A stretch of DNA of 64,000 nt from Psychrobacillus sp. FSL K6-2836 (GTDB lineage: Bacteria > Bacillota > Bacilli > Bacillales_A > Planococcaceae): NCBI RefSeq assembly GCF_038003085.1, contig NZ_JBBOOM010000001.1, positions 2,666,001-2,730,000 of the forward strand, given 5' to 3'. Under the pieces are notes generated by a model that did not search any database, was not told the DNA's origin, and saw only the letters and a list, made by a program, of their open reading frames with translations. A program made the position numbers and the translations under genes. This document shows, in pieces, positions 31,799-38,518 of the stretch; positions within the stretch are counted from its first letter, which is position 1; every line of letters starts with the position of its first letter.

Positions 31799-31846
31799 AC
31801 TAACATAAGGATGAAAGTGAGAACAAAAAATGTGATTTAAGTGCAT

Positions 31847-31867
31847 CTTTTCTACGATACTTTCACA
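31847..31867 (+). promoter_or_regulatory. Shared upstream motif (site A) before the DUF4288 gene
   Basis: CTTTTCTACGATACTTTCACA, of which TAC-GATACTTTCACA recurs at 33874-33891 upstream of the peptide-type regulator. It is about 60-80 bp before the DUF4288 start. Possible regulator binding site; function is an inference. Confidence 0.35.
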
Positions 31868-31928: not shown

Positions 31929-32234
31929 ATGTATAAAATTTTTTCTGTCAAACTATTATTCGAACACATTTCGTTATCTAGTACTATGTCAAACAAAATA
32001 TATGAAGAGACCATTAATATCATACGGGCTGTAAAATTAGAGGATGTTGATCGTCTAGTTAAGGCACATTATAAAGATGTCACCTATAAAAACATTTTTG
32101 GGGAAGAAACGACGATAAAGCTCGTAATGATTCTCGACGTCTTTGAACTTGTAGACAATATTGAGGAAACCTTGGAATTTGTAGAGGTATACAGCCAGCA
32201 TATTATTGTGGATGAAGAAGTGACGGTTGAATAA
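31929..32234 (+). CDS. DUF4288 domain protein
   Basis: 101-residue protein matching DUF4288: YKIFSVKLLFEH at the start, YEETINIIRAVKLEDVDRLVKAHY, an FGEETTIKLVMILDVFELVD core, and EVYSQHIIV near the end. DUF4288 proteins are small, soluble and uncharacterised, and often lie near toxin-immunity or signalling genes. ATG 31929 follows GAGGTGA. It is convergent with the signalling-peptide gene, sharing a terminator. Confidence 0.78.
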   Translation: MYKIFSVKLLFEHISLSSTMSNKIYEETINIIRAVKLEDVDRLVKAHYKDVTYKNIFGEETTIKLVMILDVFELVDNIEETLEFVEVYSQHIIVDEEVTVE

Positions 32235-32264
32235 GACTTCCTAAAGCTAATAGTATTTAACAGA

Positions 32265-32303
32265 TAAAAACGAGTCCATCTTTAGAAGAGGGCTCGTTTT
32301 TAT
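32265..32303. terminator. Bidirectional terminator between the DUF4288 and peptide genes
   Basis: AAAAACGAGTCC / GGGCTCGTTTTT stem with A and T runs on opposite sides. Confidence 0.82.
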
Positions 32304-32327
32304 GTTTCACTAAATCTGATTCTGTGT

Positions 32328-32450
32328 TTAGATAAACTCGTCAACAGAAGTAATTTTTGGTTTGTCATCTTCTCCCAGATGGTTTGAACTTAAAACTGGA
32401 AGCGTGAATAGAACGCAACAAAATAGAACTCCAAATACAATTTTCTTCAT
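32328..32450 (-). CDS. Putative secreted signalling pre-peptide (NprX/Phr-like)
   Basis: A 40-codon gene too short for normal calling. N-terminus is MKKIVFGVLFCCVLFTLPVL, a textbook Sec signal (basic, then hydrophobic), followed by the polar tail SSNHLGEDDKPKITSVDEFI. Its ATG overlaps the TGA of the upstream HTH-TPR regulator gene by 4 bp (ATGA), the tight coupling typical of RRNPPA receptor/pro-peptide pairs, and a terminator follows. In NprX of the B. cereus group the imported signal is a short internal piece (SKPDIVG); here DKPKITS is a possible counterpart. Function and mature form are inferred. Confidence 0.75.
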   Translation of the reverse strand: MKKIVFGVLFCCVLFTLPVLSSNHLGEDDKPKITSVDEFI

Positions 32451-33733
32451 GACAATTCCTCCCAACTAGTTACTTTTGATTGCTTCAAATGAAAATGAAA
32501 CCCTAATTCGTAGTAAATTGATGCTTGCTTATATTGTTTAGTTTCAGCTAATCGCTTAGCTAATACGTAGCAATAAATCATACAGTTTTTATAATCCTGC
32601 TTACCTCCGAAATAGTCCAAAGCTTTCTTGAAAATGGGGATAAGTTCTTGTTTCTCCAGTAATATCGCTCCATATACGGAGAAGTGGTTTGAATAGAGAT
32701 CCTTTTTGCTATTGGACAAATGCTCGATAGTCTCTATCCCTTTTTGCAGCCATACTAATGCATTCTGCAAATCATCAATTTTATGATATTCTTTCAAAAT
32801 AGATAGAATAGTCACAATTTTATCATCAGGACTATGCTTCGCATCCAAACTATAAAAAAAGTGCAGCAATGCTTGTTCAGACTCTTTTTGCAGCGAGTAG
32901 CAAGAGCCTAAATTATGCTCAATCATTCCATTGAACTCAGAGGATTCTATTTTTGAATTGATATCTCTAGCCTTTTCAAAAGTAGTGAGTGCTTCCTTTA
33001 AGAGGCCAGTATGTTTTTGTGCAATACCAAGGATTATTAAACACTCCATCGATCGTTCGATTAAAATTTCTTGATTGAAATAGGAAATGGCTTCCTTTAC
33101 ATAATCGATTGCTAGAATGTAGCGAGATTCGGATAAAAGTGATAACCCAGATATGTAATATAATTCTGCCATCTCCCAGTCTTCCATTCGAAAGCCTTTT
33201 ATCAATTGAAAAACTTCTTTAAAAATCTGAGAGGCATGGCTAAACTGATTATCTTGATAGGCGGTAATACCTTGAATCGTGTAGAGATAAAATAACTGTT
33301 CAATAGTCATTTCTTTTTTGAATTCTTCTAAAATGTAGACATTACTTTTCATATCCACTGCTTCAGGTAACATGAGCATCAAGCGAGCTTCTAACAAAAG
33401 GAGGGTTAGTCGTTCTTCTTCTAGCGGATGTTCTACAATATAAAGATGAATTTCGGAAAGAAGCGTTTTAGCCAACTTTTTATCTCGAGAGTTTAGTACT
33501 TGCTTGAACTTTAGTTTAAACTGAACAATCTTTTTTTCATTTTGATCGCCATTCGATGAGTCTAAAGAAATATTCAATCTCATCAGAATATGATTTTTTA
33601 TGTCTTCACTTGGAATGACTAATCCGTTTTCAATTCTGCTCAAGTAAGAGGGGACACAAATACCGGTAGCTAATGCTTCTTGCTTTATATTCTGTCTCTG
33701 CCGCTCTAACTTGATCAATTGTCCTAGGTTCAT
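32447..33733 (-). CDS. RRNPPA-family peptide-sensing transcriptional regulator, NprR-like
   Basis: 428-residue regulator. Residues 1-60 are an HTH_3/Xre DNA-binding domain (LGQLIKLERQRQNIKQEALATGICVPSYLSRIENG). The rest is a series of TPR-like helical pairs, for example LYYISGLSLLSESRYILAIDYVKEAISYF, CLIILGIAQKHTGLLKEALTTFEKARD and HNLGSCYSLQKESEQALLHFFYSL. The length fits NprR (about 420) rather than PlcR (about 285). The next gene, overlapping by 4 bp, encodes a secreted pre-peptide, so it is probably a cytoplasmic receptor for the re-imported peptide. Targets are unknown. Confidence 0.87.
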   Translation of the reverse strand: MNLGQLIKLERQRQNIKQEALATGICVPSYLSRIENGLVIPSEDIKNHILMRLNISLDSSNGDQNEKKIVQFKLKFKQVLNSRDKKLAKTLLSEIHLYIVEHPLEEERLTLLLLEARLMLMLPEAVDMKSNVYILEEFKKEMTIEQLFYLYTIQGITAYQDNQFSHASQIFKEVFQLIKGFRMEDWEMAELYYISGLSLLSESRYILAIDYVKEAISYFNQEILIERSMECLIILGIAQKHTGLLKEALTTFEKARDINSKIESSEFNGMIEHNLGSCYSLQKESEQALLHFFYSLDAKHSPDDKIVTILSILKEYHKIDDLQNALVWLQKGIETIEHLSNSKKDLYSNHFSVYGAILLEKQELIPIFKKALDYFGGKQDYKNCMIYCYVLAKRLAETKQYKQASIYYELGFHFHLKQSKVTSWEELS

Positions 33734-33868
33734 CTAATCTACACCCTTTTTTAAGCCAATAAATAGGAAAACAAATCCAATTATATAAATAAGATACCAT
33801 ATTCTAGTTAGAAAAACATAGAAAGCTTTCATTAAGAAAGTAACGATGAAAAAGCGCAGAAAATCGAT

Positions 33869-33907
33869 GTTTTTTACAAGATACTTTCACAGGTGGAGAT
33901 TATAATA
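33869..33907 (+). promoter_or_regulatory. Shared motif (site B) with TATAAT, upstream of the regulator
   Basis: TTTTTTACAAGATACTTTCACA (33870-33891) resembles site A before the DUF4288 gene and is followed by TTATAAT (33899-33905), a possible -10 box on the plus strand reading toward repeat copy 3. It lies about 140 bp upstream of the regulator, on the opposite strand. Confidence 0.35.
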
Positions 33908-33948: not shown

Positions 33949-34550
33949 GATTTCCGTTTCAGGTGGAAGTACAAAGGCTAAGTGCGCCACATCGCGATCG
34001 CAACGTCTTCGTGACCAACATCCTGTTGGCCTCCGCAAGGGTGAGCGTATAAGCTGTCACCGCCTTACGCGTTCGTTGTGATGTCTTATCGCGTAGTACT
34101 ACTTTAGAAGATTTGGCAAAGCGTATCGCTTAGATAATAAGATTAGCTCAAGTTAATGTAGGGATATAAAGATTTGTAATTGCTGATGAAGTAGAGATAC
34201 TGTTATTCAATGATAGATGGAGGCAGGCAGTTTTCTTTTTACTGGTGGAGATAAAGAGGAATAGTAAGTGTTTACTAAATAAAGAAGCGAAATAGCTCAC
34301 GAAATTGTATCTTCGTGAGCTTCCTTTAAAAATAGGAAAGTGGCTTCTCTCTAGTTATCCAAAAACGCACAAACCTGTTTCTAATAGTTGTAGAAGGGCA
34401 CGGACAGACAGGCAACTGCCATAAGATTACCAGCCTTTTTAAAAATCAAACGGTAATCTTATAGCAAAACGTCTGTCCAAAGCACTTCGAAAACGATAGA
34501 AACAGGTTTTGACCTTAAAGGGCTGGGCATGTTTTTTCCTGGTTTTCTTA
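33949..34550 (+). repeat. Structured dispersed repeat, copy 3
   Basis: GC-rich left block begins GATTTCCGTTTCAGG (33949). Mid part shares CGCTTAGATAATAAGATT and AAAGAAGCGAAATAGC with copy 1. The right part has GGACAGAC (34402-34409) pairing GTCTGTCC (34471-34478) and, inside, ATAAGATTACC (34421) pairing GGTAATCTTAT (34452), both perfect. Outer CCTGTTTCTA/TAGAAACAGG arms enclose these. The long central hairpin of copies 1 and 2 is absent. Ends ...GGTTTTCTTA, 40 bp from the pnkp stop. No gene inside. Confidence 0.85.
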
Positions 34551-34589: not shown

Positions 34590-37175
34590 TTATAATCTTG
34601 GATCGACTGGATCTGATTCCATTGCTAAAGTAGCTAAAACGCATTCATGCACACGTTCAATCGAGTCACCATTGACGAAACGTTTTATACCATCTATACC
34701 TAACGCAAATTCTTTTAGTGCAAGTTTTTGCTTTTTACCTGTATTTCGTTTCTTCAATCGTTCTAAGTTTGCAGGACTTAAATAATCCATCCCGTAAATG
34801 ATATGCAAATATTTACGACCTCTTACTTTAATAGCTGGCTGTATTAGTCTTCCTCTAGATGTTGGGATATAAAATTCAGGCTTAATAACGATTCCCTCAT
34901 GTCCTTCTTTTGTCATTTCTTCCCACCAAGTGATTACTTCTAATTCACTCGCTGCATCAGAAATGGTTTTATATTCAGTTGTCACAAAAAGAGATGAATC
35001 CTTAGCGAATTCCTTATTCATTTCCATATGCCATGTATGGGGCTTATGAAAAAATGATACATTACTGTGAGCAAGCACATGAAACGGTGCAATTTGAATA
35101 GTATTTGTCCCTTCAATATCCCAGCAATACTTTTGGAACACTTCTTTAAATGTCTCTGCATTCGCAAGTTTTTCCTTGTATTCTACTAGCCAGTTCTTCA
35201 CATCCACATGTTTGGAACTATTTAGCTTTTCTAATAGTTTCTTTCGATCTAAAATTGCATTTTCCGAAACATGAGCATATTGACTGCTAATTAGTTCTTT
35301 AGCTTTTAAATTCCAAGGCATAATTTCTGTATCTAATAATACATAGTCCGTTTCATACTTTTCAAAATACCCTTTTCGAGTCAACTCTTCGTTTAACTCT
35401 CGTAAAACTTTTTGTTCTGTTATCTTATCAAAAAATCTTCTTCCAGTTCTCGAGTAGATTACACCTTCTATTTCCCAACCGATGAACTTTTTCGCTGATT
35501 CTTTATCTTTAAATAAAAGTAGTACTGCACGACTGCCCATATGCTTCTTCTCAGCGATCAACGTTTCAATCCCATGACTCCGATAATATTCAATAGCTTC
35601 TTTTGGATGCTCTAAGAAATCGGGAAGCTTTGAAGTTTCCGGAGTAGGACTCATTGTTGGTGGAATATAAAGCAGTTGTTCGATTGGAACCGTATAATGA
35701 GAGACGGTGTCTATAGCAGATTTAACGATATCCTGATGAACCTTAATATCTCCTAAAAGTTCAGTCTGTACGGAATATCCGTCAATAAACTTCCCTATAT
35801 TTGGTGCATCAAAACGTTTCTTTTCCCATTCCTGCAATGGATTATCTAATGGACCAGAATAATCATTCGCGGCTTTTACAGAAACGAATTCCTCTTCGGG
35901 ATATCGAAACGCTGTTAGCTTACCACCAAAAACAACGCCTTGATCGATATTAATCGTATTATTTATCACAAGTGGCTGTAGTTTTGGGTCATGTCCCCAA
36001 ATGATAACTATGCTCCCTTTATGATGGACAAACCAATCGTCCCGGATTGGCTTTCCTTTTTCATTCAAACCACTTGTATCTCCATATCGACAAAAATCTT
36101 GAATATCAGGTGATTGTTTACCAATAAACTCATCTTTAATTCCGGCATGGGTACATACTGCGGTAGGAGTACCATTTTTCATTAATACATAATGAGAAGG
36201 AGAACGAAGTAGGAAATTTTTCAACATTTCCTTTGTTTCCGTTGTCTTCTCTATCCCATGAGCCTTCTCATATTCTTTAAATTCTTCTTCTACTTTCTCG
36301 TCCCCATAATTTAATGTTACATTTCGTCCATCAAGCCAACGGGCAATTTTCCAACCATGGTTGCTGTCCGTCATATATGCCAATCCTTGTTCGACATGTC
36401 GTTGGAAAAACAGCATCGTTTTTAGTGATTCTGGTCCTCTGCTCATAACATCACCAACAGACATAAACTTTCTACCCTTTGGATGGATATATAATGCATC
36501 ATCGCTTTCCTTGTAACCAAGTTTTTTCAAAAGGGCAATAAATTCATCATAGCAGCCATGTATATCTCCAATTAAATCAATACCATACTCCACATCGACC
36601 AGTAGAGGATGATCCATCCGCACAAGCCCAATTTCTTCTTCCGCATTGATGGAATAGATTGATTTGAACCCTTCTTTTTTTATGGAACGTTTTTCCCGCT
36701 TTAAATTTTGATACTGCTGTTTTACTTTTTTCTTTCCACGAGGTTGTTCTCGTTGTTCATCACGTTCAAGTAGTGTTTCTTGTGGAATATCTAATACAAC
36801 TGCAACAATTGGTACATGATGTTTTCGAGCTAACGCTATATATTTTTTTCGATCATCTGAGAAAATATGTGTTGCATCTATAAATGTTAATTTATTTAAT
36901 CGACATCTAGCTTCGATTACATTATCCATCATATGGAAGGCTTCTTTTGATATAGTATAGTATTGGTCGTAGAGACTATCTGCCTCATCTTTTGGTCTGC
37001 CTGTCCATTCAATAAAATTCGTATCGCCCACAACTAAACGATAATCATCAGAACTTATCACTTCCGATGGTAAAATAGTTTCTTCACGGATCCAGTTGTT
37101 TAGCAATGTTGTTTTTCCACTATTGGACGCGCCGATTAGAAGGACAATCCCTGAACTTGGTATTGTTATTTTCAT
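34590..37175 (-). CDS. pnkp: Polynucleotide kinase-phosphatase-ligase (bacterial Pnkp)
   Basis: End-healing and sealing enzyme of bacterial RNA repair, 861 residues. Domains: 5' polynucleotide kinase with P-loop GASNSGKTT (about 15-23); metallophosphoesterase with GDIHGCYDEF (203) and SNHGWK (271); C-terminal adenylyltransferase with AEKKHMGSRAV (Lys about 544) and EGIVIKPEF. It mends RNAs cut by ribotoxins together with Hen1. The canonical phosphatase motif GDxxDRG reads GDVMSRGP here, losing one acidic residue. GGAAGGAG fits ATG 37175, which overlaps the hen1 stop by 4 bp. Confidence 0.95.
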   Translation of the reverse strand: MKITIPSSGIVLLIGASNSGKTTLLNNWIREETILPSEVISSDDYRLVVGDTNFIEWTGRPKDEADSLYDQYYTISKEAFHMMDNVIEARCRLNKLTFIDATHIFSDDRKKYIALARKHHVPIVAVVLDIPQETLLERDEQREQPRGKKKVKQQYQNLKREKRSIKKEGFKSIYSINAEEEIGLVRMDHPLLVDVEYGIDLIGDIHGCYDEFIALLKKLGYKESDDALYIHPKGRKFMSVGDVMSRGPESLKTMLFFQRHVEQGLAYMTDSNHGWKIARWLDGRNVTLNYGDEKVEEEFKEYEKAHGIEKTTETKEMLKNFLLRSPSHYVLMKNGTPTAVCTHAGIKDEFIGKQSPDIQDFCRYGDTSGLNEKGKPIRDDWFVHHKGSIVIIWGHDPKLQPLVINNTINIDQGVVFGGKLTAFRYPEEEFVSVKAANDYSGPLDNPLQEWEKKRFDAPNIGKFIDGYSVQTELLGDIKVHQDIVKSAIDTVSHYTVPIEQLLYIPPTMSPTPETSKLPDFLEHPKEAIEYYRSHGIETLIAEKKHMGSRAVLLLFKDKESAKKFIGWEIEGVIYSRTGRRFFDKITEQKVLRELNEELTRKGYFEKYETDYVLLDTEIMPWNLKAKELISSQYAHVSENAILDRKKLLEKLNSSKHVDVKNWLVEYKEKLANAETFKEVFQKYCWDIEGTNTIQIAPFHVLAHSNVSFFHKPHTWHMEMNKEFAKDSSLFVTTEYKTISDAASELEVITWWEEMTKEGHEGIVIKPEFYIPTSRGRLIQPAIKVRGRKYLHIIYGMDYLSPANLERLKKRNTGKKQKLALKEFALGIDGIKRFVNGDSIERVHECVLATLAMESDPVDPRL

Positions 37176-38518
37176 GAATGCTTCTCCTTCCTGATAAACG
37201 TGCACATTTGAGTAGGAAAACCATGGGTTTCATCCTCATCCCCAATACCTTCAAACGACAGCTCGTAGCGTTCAGAGTGATTCATACGAAGACACCATTT
37301 CTTAAATTCTTCTCTTGTCCATTCAAAACGATGATCATTATGTCGCATAGAATCAACCATTTGATAAACATGATTATATTCCTTGTTTGGTGTAGTAATG
37401 ATTAAAGAAGCTGGGTAATAATGTTCTAAAATTAGATCCATTGCTTTTGGTAATCTTTCTTCATCGATGTGCTCAATCACTTCACAAAGGATGATGACAT
37501 CTTTGTTTTTTAAGCGTTCATCAAAGTAAAAAAGAGAGCCCCAAATCATTTTTGGTTCGACAAAGCCTTTTTGATCCTTTATCTTTTCAAATCGTTTCAA
37601 TGCTTTTAATCTTGCAATTTCACTTGGTTCCACGGCAAAAATCTCCCGAACCTCTTCAACAAAACCTAGTCGAGCAGATAATTTACCTTCACCAGATCCA
37701 AAATCGACAATCTTATTTTTTACGGGTAGTTTTCTAACTGAATCCACAATTCTTTCGTAACGAAGCTCATTCAGCGGTATAGGATGAATTTGCTTTTCAG
37801 AATTATCCTGTTCTTCAAGTTGACTATAGATTTCCTTAAAACGTAAAGCTTTACGGACGATAAACTCTTTCTGGGGATGATCCTCAAGCCAGCCCTCACC
37901 GTACCGTTTTAGCTTTTCAATTTCTGATTCATCAATAAAATAATGTTTATAGTTGTCCAACACCGGAATGAGTATAAATAGCTGTTGGAGCCCTTTTTGA
38001 AGGGAAGTTTGACTAGACAAAGTGATAAAACATGCAGAACTTCTTTCTTTTAAACGAAAGGAATAATCCGTTTCTGCATACTCAACTCTGACATCATAAC
38101 CCAATGGTTCAAATAGATTCCGAATTTCATGTTCACTTAACTCAGTTGCAACCGGTCCAAAACTAAAGACAAAAGGAAAACGGTAATCCACCCATTTTGT
38201 ATATTCTTCTTTTGGCTTCCCGTTTAAAGCAGTACCAAGTGCATTTCGGATGAGTGACATAAAGATGCTGCTTACTACAAATTCACGATCGTTAATATAA
38301 TGGGTTATGTCATATGCATTCGAAGAATGATTTACAAGGGCTAGTGGATCTGGCGACACGAAAATAGTCAGCTCAAGTTCTGTATCAGTTACTACATTAT
38401 AAAACATTCTAATGTGATGACCTTTATGGTTCCGTTCATATATATTATTAGGGTTTTTAGCAAGAAGATAAGTAATAGCTTCTACATTTTCACCTGTTGC
38501 TCTAATTGTTAGCTGCAT
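37172..38518 (-). CDS. hen1: Hen1 RNA 3'-terminal ribose 2'-O-methyltransferase
   Basis: Methylates the 2'-OH at the 3' end of cleaved RNA before sealing, so a ribotoxin cannot recut at the repaired site. 448 residues: N-terminal half is the bacterial Hen1 domain that activates the Pnkp ligase; C-terminal half is the methyltransferase with VDFGSGEGKLSARLGF (SAM site, about 270), and CEVIEHIDEERL, the EVIEH metal-binding motif. It leads the hen1-pnkp operon. Confidence 0.95.
   Translation of the reverse strand: MQLTIRATGENVEAITYLLAKNPNNIYERNHKGHHIRMFYNVVTDTELELTIFVSPDPLALVNHSSNAYDITHYINDREFVVSSIFMSLIRNALGTALNGKPKEEYTKWVDYRFPFVFSFGPVATELSEHEIRNLFEPLGYDVRVEYAETDYSFRLKERSSACFITLSSQTSLQKGLQQLFILIPVLDNYKHYFIDESEIEKLKRYGEGWLEDHPQKEFIVRKALRFKEIYSQLEEQDNSEKQIHPIPLNELRYERIVDSVRKLPVKNKIVDFGSGEGKLSARLGFVEEVREIFAVEPSEIARLKALKRFEKIKDQKGFVEPKMIWGSLFYFDERLKNKDVIILCEVIEHIDEERLPKAMDLILEHYYPASLIITTPNKEYNHVYQMVDSMRHNDHRFEWTREEFKKWCLRMNHSERYELSFEGIGDEDETHGFPTQMCTFIRKEKHS

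Follow-up and report, generated by a model that had tools for sequence, protein, structure and literature searches.

Genetic organization of the locus

We analyzed a 64,000-nucleotide stretch of the chromosome of Psychrobacillus sp. FSL K6-2836 (contig NZ_JBBOOM010000001.1, positions 2,666,001 to 2,730,000; hereafter the window, to which all positions refer), focusing on a receptor gene, a propeptide gene overlapping its 3' end and a convergent gene for a DUF4288 protein. Judged from their sequences, these elements seem to form a cassette that has a signal, a switch site and a target of its own while resembling known Bacillus quorum-sensing systems—and the cassette around the receptor–propeptide pair is a stronger result than the pair itself. 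An earlier note, made from the sequence alone, had described a helix-turn-helix–tetratricopeptide repeat (HTH–TPR) regulator overlapping (ATGA) a 40-codon signal-peptide gene that is followed by a terminator; the open reading frames (ORFs) and Pfam matches bear out the gene pair, and a hairpin that folds on both strands agrees with the terminator. The DUF4288 partner and the paired operator-like sites had escaped that note. The features of the locus are as follows.

31813..31864, no strand assigned: inverted pair GAAAGT-N40-ACTTTC upstream of the DUF4288 gene (52 bp; within 1 mismatch in 11 of 12 orthologues)
31929..32234, plus strand: gene for a DUF4288 protein of 101 aa, oriented towards the pair and a candidate output (PF14119, 28.1 bits against a cut-off of 27)
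32264..32303, no strand assigned: bidirectional terminator-like hairpin between the convergent genes, from folding
32328..32450, minus strand: propeptide gene of 40 codons, signal sequence plus tail SNHLGEDDKPKITSVDEFI, with a probable core around DKPKITS
32447..33733, minus strand: HTH plus nine-TPR regulator, a predicted RRNPPA (NprR-like) receptor (ORF, Pfam, AlphaFold2 and Foldseek)
32454..32463, minus strand: Shine-Dalgarno sequence GGGAGGAATT of the propeptide gene, inside the last codons of the receptor gene (W-E-E-L)
33836..33888, no strand assigned: inverted pair GAAAGT-N41-ACTTTC upstream of the receptor gene (53 bp; within 1 mismatch in 11 of 12 orthologues)

Folding of positions 32255-32312 gave -21.0 kcal/mol on the plus strand (z -6.55) and -17.1 kcal/mol on the minus strand (z -5.17), and the hairpin at 32264..32303 was not listed by a plain terminator scan with a loop limit of 3-8.

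Architecture and predicted fold of the receptor

The receptor ORF runs from an ATG to a TGA, encodes 428 aa and matches HTH_3 (2.7e-07) and TPR_12 (2.9e-09) in Pfam. In the AlphaFold2 model, built on a 40-row alignment (predicted local distance difference test score of 91.8), four HTH helices are followed by 18 further helices that make up nine TPRs, which gives the protein both the TPR superhelix with an N-terminal effector domain expected of RRNPPA members and the HTH plus nine-TPR layout of about 424 aa expected of the NprR subfamily. All of the first 24 Foldseek matches to this model are Rap or NprR structures; among the 50 matches listed, apo NprR (5dbk_B) has the top TM-score by query length (0.69, or 0.82 by target length; root-mean-square deviation of 3.3), and the lowest E-values belong to Rap proteins. 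A profile of 40 relatives searched against the PDB returned NprR (4gpk, 4e-45) as the best natural match, outscored by one engineered TPR protein and followed by Rap proteins from 1e-37 and weaker. Matches of the receptor in PADLOC were restricted to weak HTH and TPR hits, and PHROG 5208, a group of unknown function, matches its TPR part (5e-22). In a 44-row tree, the 12 orthologues found in the genus form one long-stemmed clade beside a second NprR-like family of the genus (family B, described below) and a plasmid receptor of Priestia koreensis, with NprR itself left unplaced.

We further mapped the NprR residues reported in the text of PMC4970707 onto the 12 orthologues, keeping in mind that single columns may be shifted at 17% identity. 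The Spo0F-binding residues D107, Y118, E188 and Y223 correspond to L, E, M and I in the window receptor, and no orthologue among the 12 retains any of them. The NprX-contact or closure residues R126, Y165, W167, H201 and R343 read P, N, F, S and N in the window receptor, and R126, Y165, H201 and R343, like F225, are not kept among the orthologues. The W167 column is aromatic in all 12 (F in 11, Y in one), and N275 and Y410 are retained throughout as N274 and Y408. Going by the numbering, the N274 column is probably equivalent to N227, given as the peptide anchor of RapF in the text of PMC3601957.

These results bear on the question of whether the receptor might act in the manner of a Rap protein, its apo state binding a response regulator such as Spo0F and its HTH being secondary. 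The fold is equally close to Rap and NprR, and NprR itself is described as binding Spo0F (PMC4970707); however, the Spo0F-binding positions of NprR are replaced as listed above, the HTH is strongly conserved among the orthologues and so are the paired DNA sites, and we hold this reading to be improbable. Because of the 17% identity and the lost NprR residues, we file the receptor, on its modeled fold, as an RRNPPA member of NprR architecture and not as NprR itself: the label "NprR-like" attached to it earlier stands for the architecture and fails for the identity, for the Spo0F-binding residues and for most of the peptide-contact residues.

The propeptide gene and its candidate signal core

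The propeptide ORF (32450-32328, minus strand) encodes 40 aa, MKKIVFGVLFCCVLFTLPVLSSNHLGEDDKPKITSVDEFI, and its start codon shares the four bases ATGA with the receptor stop. A longer version of 45 aa in the ORF list starts at an upstream TTG; the conserved start is that of the 40-aa form, preceded by GGGAGGAATT. With signal-like character called by a hydrophobicity and charge filter, this receptor is the single one among the 39 window ORFs with 200 aa or more that has a signal-like small ORF with a Shine-Dalgarno sequence at its 3' end. The gene occupies the identical -4 position in 11 of the 12 same-genus orthologous loci (start codons ATG in nine, GTG in one and TTG in one); in the twelfth (L007, genome G006) the frame is present and meets a stop at codon 7, which may mark a signal-null listener or be a sequencing error. 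Across the same 10 pairs, drawn from the five ungapped orthologues of the 11, the ratio of non-synonymous to synonymous substitution rates (dN/dS) is 0.09-0.27 for the propeptide and 0.06-0.14 for the receptor, and the propeptide gene is under purifying selection. Short ORFs are common, and a chance open frame was one of the explanations we weighed; it can be given next to no weight in view of these dN/dS values, the conserved start, Shine-Dalgarno sequence and overlap, and the single passing ORF among 39.

The Shine-Dalgarno sequence also leaves a trace in the codons that contain it. The first Glu codon of the terminal W-E motif is GAG in all 35 scored loci with a peptide gene (the broken one of L007 counted), GAA in the two scored loci that end in WE[ED]L and have no peptide gene, and GAG makes up 29% of Glu codons in the 39 window ORFs; the 39 loci entering this test were picked by their C-terminus, peptide-gene presence was assigned by hand, and the loci are related and hence not independent events. 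The scored position reads CAA in L027, which has no peptide gene; L023 gave no value, and the distant peptide-bearing receptors L025, L029, L030, L056, L057 and L058, among others, lay outside the scored set.

Aligning the propeptides of 10 single-copy orthologues with that of Filibacter tadaridae—and leaving aside L013, with its repeats, and the broken L007—we found P31, I33 and T34 to be invariant and K30 to be present in 10 of 11. The tail thus has a conserved core, KPxIT, read as KPEIT and KPDIT in orthologues, within variable flanks. L013 encodes a single 96-aa propeptide carrying five tandem copies of IQDKP[DE]ITS[IT]N, a repeat that points to the unit actually used as the signal; NprR-type propeptides with tandem copies are described in the text of PMC9765709. 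Since the K-P-x-I core is common to the NprX signal SKPDIVG, the candidate signal looks like an NprX-type variant rather than something unrelated, a closer likeness than the "only loosely" NprX-like tail of the earlier note. That note had also expected the small gene to be conserved 3' of orthologous receptors with a variable tail; the gene is indeed conserved, and the variability is confined to the flanks of the core. Orthologous loci without a signal-peptide gene, which it had named as grounds for abandoning the pair, were not encountered in 11 of 12 cases, the twelfth being L007. Its proposal of an RRNPPA-type receptor–propeptide pair is supported by the fold, the conserved gene order, the selection on coding sequence and the tandem-repeated tail.

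The small gene could alternatively encode an effector that is secreted or sits in the membrane, such as a toxin-like peptide, rather than the signal of the receptor. As a matter of general knowledge, a hydrophobic product of 40 aa resembles other small secreted or membrane peptides. Conservation of KPxIT in the tail, its tandem repetition in L013 and comparable peptide genes 3' of all 18 family B receptors nevertheless make an effector very improbable.

Paired operator-like sites and the convergent DUF4288 gene

When the upstream regions of the 12 receptors were aligned, GAAAG and CTTTC blocks stood out amid poorly conserved sequence. At nine receptors, GAAAGT and ACTTTC start 47 apart; at one further receptor the start-to-start distance is 46, and at the remaining two it is 45. 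Across the receptor and DUF4288 promoters, the spacer is N39-41. When the 19 same-genus genomes were searched for this pattern, eight of them proved to have another copy next to the locus. As controls, we ran 300 dinucleotide shuffles, none of which gave the paired sites in more than 1 of 12, and 500 column permutations preserving relatedness, where the highest count was 3 of 12. Upstream of the family B receptors, the pair was found within one mismatch in none of 18 and within two mismatches in one of 18. A sigma-70 scan gave fewer matches than shuffled sequence (4 against a mean of 10.3), and our remarks on promoters are therefore based on conservation only; no good -35 hexamer is visible before the DUF4288 gene, and the plain promoter scan lists nothing at that place.

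A DUF4288 gene lies at the locus in 12 of the 19 same-genus genomes, which are exactly the 12 that bear the receptor. The model of the DUF4288 protein (predicted local distance difference test score of 74.8) had no PDB match at E <= 0.001, PADLOC returned no match for it, and a literature search on DUF4288 found nothing. Three further weak DUF4288 matches, in other longer frames (264-1082 aa), were regarded as chance.

The link between the pair and its convergent neighbor can be questioned: the receptor–propeptide pair may be real with DUF4288 an accidental neighbor, the paired sites being those of another regulator or a piece of promoter architecture. Elsewhere DUF4288 is unlinked to such receptors, the three genes may be gained or lost jointly merely through adjacency, and the paired sites are not enriched genome-wide. 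Across 12 genomes, however, two unrelated cassette promoters have the same 6-bp boxes at nearly equal spacing, and the family B upstream regions are without them, so that we consider an accidental neighbor unlikely, if more plausible than the other alternatives weighed here.

Distribution and joint presence of the three genes

Among the 61 genomes searched (our own included), 41 carry some receptor relative; the same-genome duplicate loci L033-L039 and L041 did not enter the counts a second time. The 19 same-genus genomes hold an orthologue in 12 cases (66-100% identity) and a family B paralogue in 18 (27-32%). The locus is syntenic between ATP-binding cassette (ABC) genes on a 4.2 Mb chromosome contig; DUF4288 faces the receptor–propeptide pair in 12 of 12 loci, and the ABC1-ABC2 genes stand behind DUF4288 in 10 of 12. 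Two sites are empty (L152 and L154): 67 and 75 bp separate ABC3 from ABC2, and all three cassette genes are missing from the gap, an arrangement in keeping with gain or loss of the cassette as a unit. The other five cassette-free genomes have ABC2, and ABC3 was not found within the 8 kb examined.

The F. tadaridae locus (L040) was kept outside the 12 orthologous loci. Its receptor has 48% identity and, in the frame read, a stop after codon 57, next to an intact propeptide with the tail DDLPPITMPISTGDFI; the distances from GAAAGT to CTTTC are 60 and 69, and DUF4288 was not found in the 7.3 kb examined. In two species (G014 and G006), a gene that looks LytR-CpsA-Psr-like lies between the propeptide and DUF4288 genes in the direction of the propeptide (L080:5046-6137 and L081:7727-8755), and is a possible extra operon member there.

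Relationship to known quorum-sensing systems

NprR-NprX is a system of the Bacillus cereus group. According to the text of PMC5641580, NprR of strain S51107 has 423 aa, with a 43-aa propeptide gene directly downstream and SKPDIVG as its signal, and PMC4970707 describes the NprR-NprX complex as a tetramer that is believed to occupy two sites simultaneously. Compared with these accounts, the Psychrobacillus system shares the HTH plus nine-TPR receptor, the propeptide gene directly downstream and the K-P-x-I signal. It differs in its 17% identity and the absence of the Spo0F-binding and most mapped peptide-contact residues, in a candidate signal that continues with IT(S) instead of the IVG of NprX, in a propeptide below the NprX cut-off and in its DUF4288 partner.

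The arbitrium system AimR-AimP-aimX of SPbeta-like phages is likewise built from an HTH-TPR receptor, its own propeptide, long-spaced inverted 6-bp boxes and a nearby output gene; AimR is described as binding boxes with a 25-bp spacer, with some change in length tolerated (PMC6458997). Set against that account, the spacer here is 39-41 bp, two sites are present, one of them upstream of the receptor, and the candidate output is DUF4288. The locus is also chromosomal and syntenic between ABC genes, unlike that of AimR, and we rejected a phage origin of the receptor, which had no match in the phage collection. With Rap-Phr the system has the nine-TPR fold and the propeptide gene beside the receptor in common; Rap proteins are described in the text of PMC9765709 as having no HTH domain, whereas the HTH and the paired DNA sites are present and conserved here.

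Two plasmid NprR-NprX systems were reported for Priestia koreensis FS-1 with RRNPP_detector (PMC10075063), and the locus on plasmid NZ_CP061869.1 is presumably one of them. Its receptor shows 23.8% identity over 96% of ours and has a 42-aa propeptide downstream; unlike the cassette described here, it is plasmid-borne, its tail (EEEFPEPTVAQVLI) is different, and no DUF4288 is found among the five annotated features shown. Family B, the second NprR-like pair (in 18 of 19 genomes), is alike in size, in its HTH-TPR layout and in having a Shine-Dalgarno sequence in the last receptor codons; a propeptide gene stands at the receptor 3' end in 18 of 18, with PRPTS in 14 of 18 tails. It differs in its 27-32% identity and in having no GAAAGT/ACTTTC pair within one mismatch in the 18 upstream regions. 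The name Psychrobacillus is absent from the main texts of PMC9765709, PMC10075063, PMC12700828, PMC5199041 and PMC11343458.

Two further pairs were noted in passing. The family B pair of the present genome lies at G000:C1:2261360-2262655 (L002) and has the tail EEETPRPTSIGNSFI. In another genus of the family (L030, genome G024), a distant receptor relative has as its neighbor a propeptide of 114 aa in which ADRVPEPWA recurs in six near-identical copies.

Proposed mechanism and its weighing

Gene order, coding conservation, predicted fold, the repeated signal core, the paired sites and joint presence or absence are read directly from the sequences, and from them we infer a self-contained NprR-like RRNPPA quorum-sensing cassette with DUF4288 as its dedicated output, a reading we consider probable. 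Receptor and propeptide would be co-transcribed, the propeptide being translated from the Shine-Dalgarno sequence within the last codons of the receptor. The 40-aa propeptide would then be exported by the Sec route and trimmed outside the cell to a short peptide around DKPKITS. An oligopeptide permease would bring this peptide back into the cell, where the receptor would bind it in its TPR groove; the genome has seven matches to SBP_bac_5, the oligopeptide-binding type, one of them partial. Peptide binding would alter how the HTH dimer (or tetramer) occupies the GAAAGT boxes, inverted and spaced by 39-41 bp, that precede the receptor gene itself and the convergent DUF4288 gene, and DUF4288 would be switched in this way. 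As to direction, we lean—as a guess—towards activation at high density over an AimR-like release, because of the NprR-NprX parallel and because no good -35 hexamer was seen before DUF4288.

Several observations weigh against the cassette as proposed. The model is drawn from sequence. Beyond the 17% identity to NprR, the Spo0F-binding, Lys-stacking and tetramer residues of NprR are not conserved in an alignment that is itself uncertain; a single-sequence PDB search with the receptor gave weak matches to Rap3T (0.0075) and PlcR (0.024) and did not find NprR, and the 12-orthologue profile does not separate Rap, NprR and PlcR, ranking consensus TPR proteins first and then Rap105 (2.7e-07), NprR (2.1e-06) and PlcR (2.4e-06). 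The propeptide scores 14.0 bits against a cut-off of 33 for the NprX family NF033801, in a match to the signal part only; none of seven further propeptides tested passes that cut-off, and an NF033801 scan of 398 Bacilli genomes gave no match, controls included, and is uninformative. L007, with its broken propeptide, retains the receptor, DUF4288 and, within 1 mismatch, the paired sites, and L023, in which no peptide gene was found, also ends W-E with GAG right before the stop.

Further such points concern the operator sites and the output gene. The motif was derived from the receptor upstream regions, leaving the DUF4288 side as its sole independent test; the 45-47 bp from box to box do not correspond to an integral number of helical turns; and genome-wide the pattern turns up about as often as a reversed control (4 against 3 in our own genome), for which reason we limit the claim to the two cassette sites and propose no wider regulon. 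Six of the 12 DUF4288 proteins pass the Pfam cut-off, and the other six are 60-93% identical either to that of the window or to its orthologues. Among the 398 Bacilli genomes, 24 carry DUF4288, and of 22 loci outside the genus we examined 20 (G099 and G250 left out) over about 5 kb per side, less at one contig end: none has a clear receptor nearby, there is one weak match to the receptor profile (9e-4), and no common gene emerged when the neighbors of seven DUF4288 loci elsewhere were compared by eye. From these comparisons, the DUF4288-receptor pairing seems special to this genus.

A more specific version of the cassette reading, which we advance tentatively and rate at a little under an even chance, is that of a minimal unit of receptor, pheromone and one output that is gained or lost as a whole, in which the receptor has no Spo0F role and serves as a dedicated DUF4288 switch through boxes spaced 39-41 bp apart. 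In that case, DUF4288 would be an effector under density control, and the broken-propeptide strain a natural signal-null listener. The cassette reading in general makes a testable circuit of what was a proposed pair, supplying within 2.1 kb candidates for the signal core, for two operators and for one target. If right, it would separate the two reported activities of NprR, Spo0F binding and DNA binding, extend long-spaced operators beyond phage AimR and give DUF4288 its first biological setting. The tandem-repeat and broken-propeptide orthologues offer natural variants for signal dosage and receptor-only strains.

Neighboring genes

Between the receptor gene and ABC3, positions 34590-38518 (minus strand) encode Pnkp, with kinase, phosphatase and ligase domains, together with Hen1, a bacterial RNA-repair pair. 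The remaining 11 orthologous loci gave no match to it within stretches of 14 kb. The intergenic region at 33975-34111 contains a 78% palindrome at 34084-34111.
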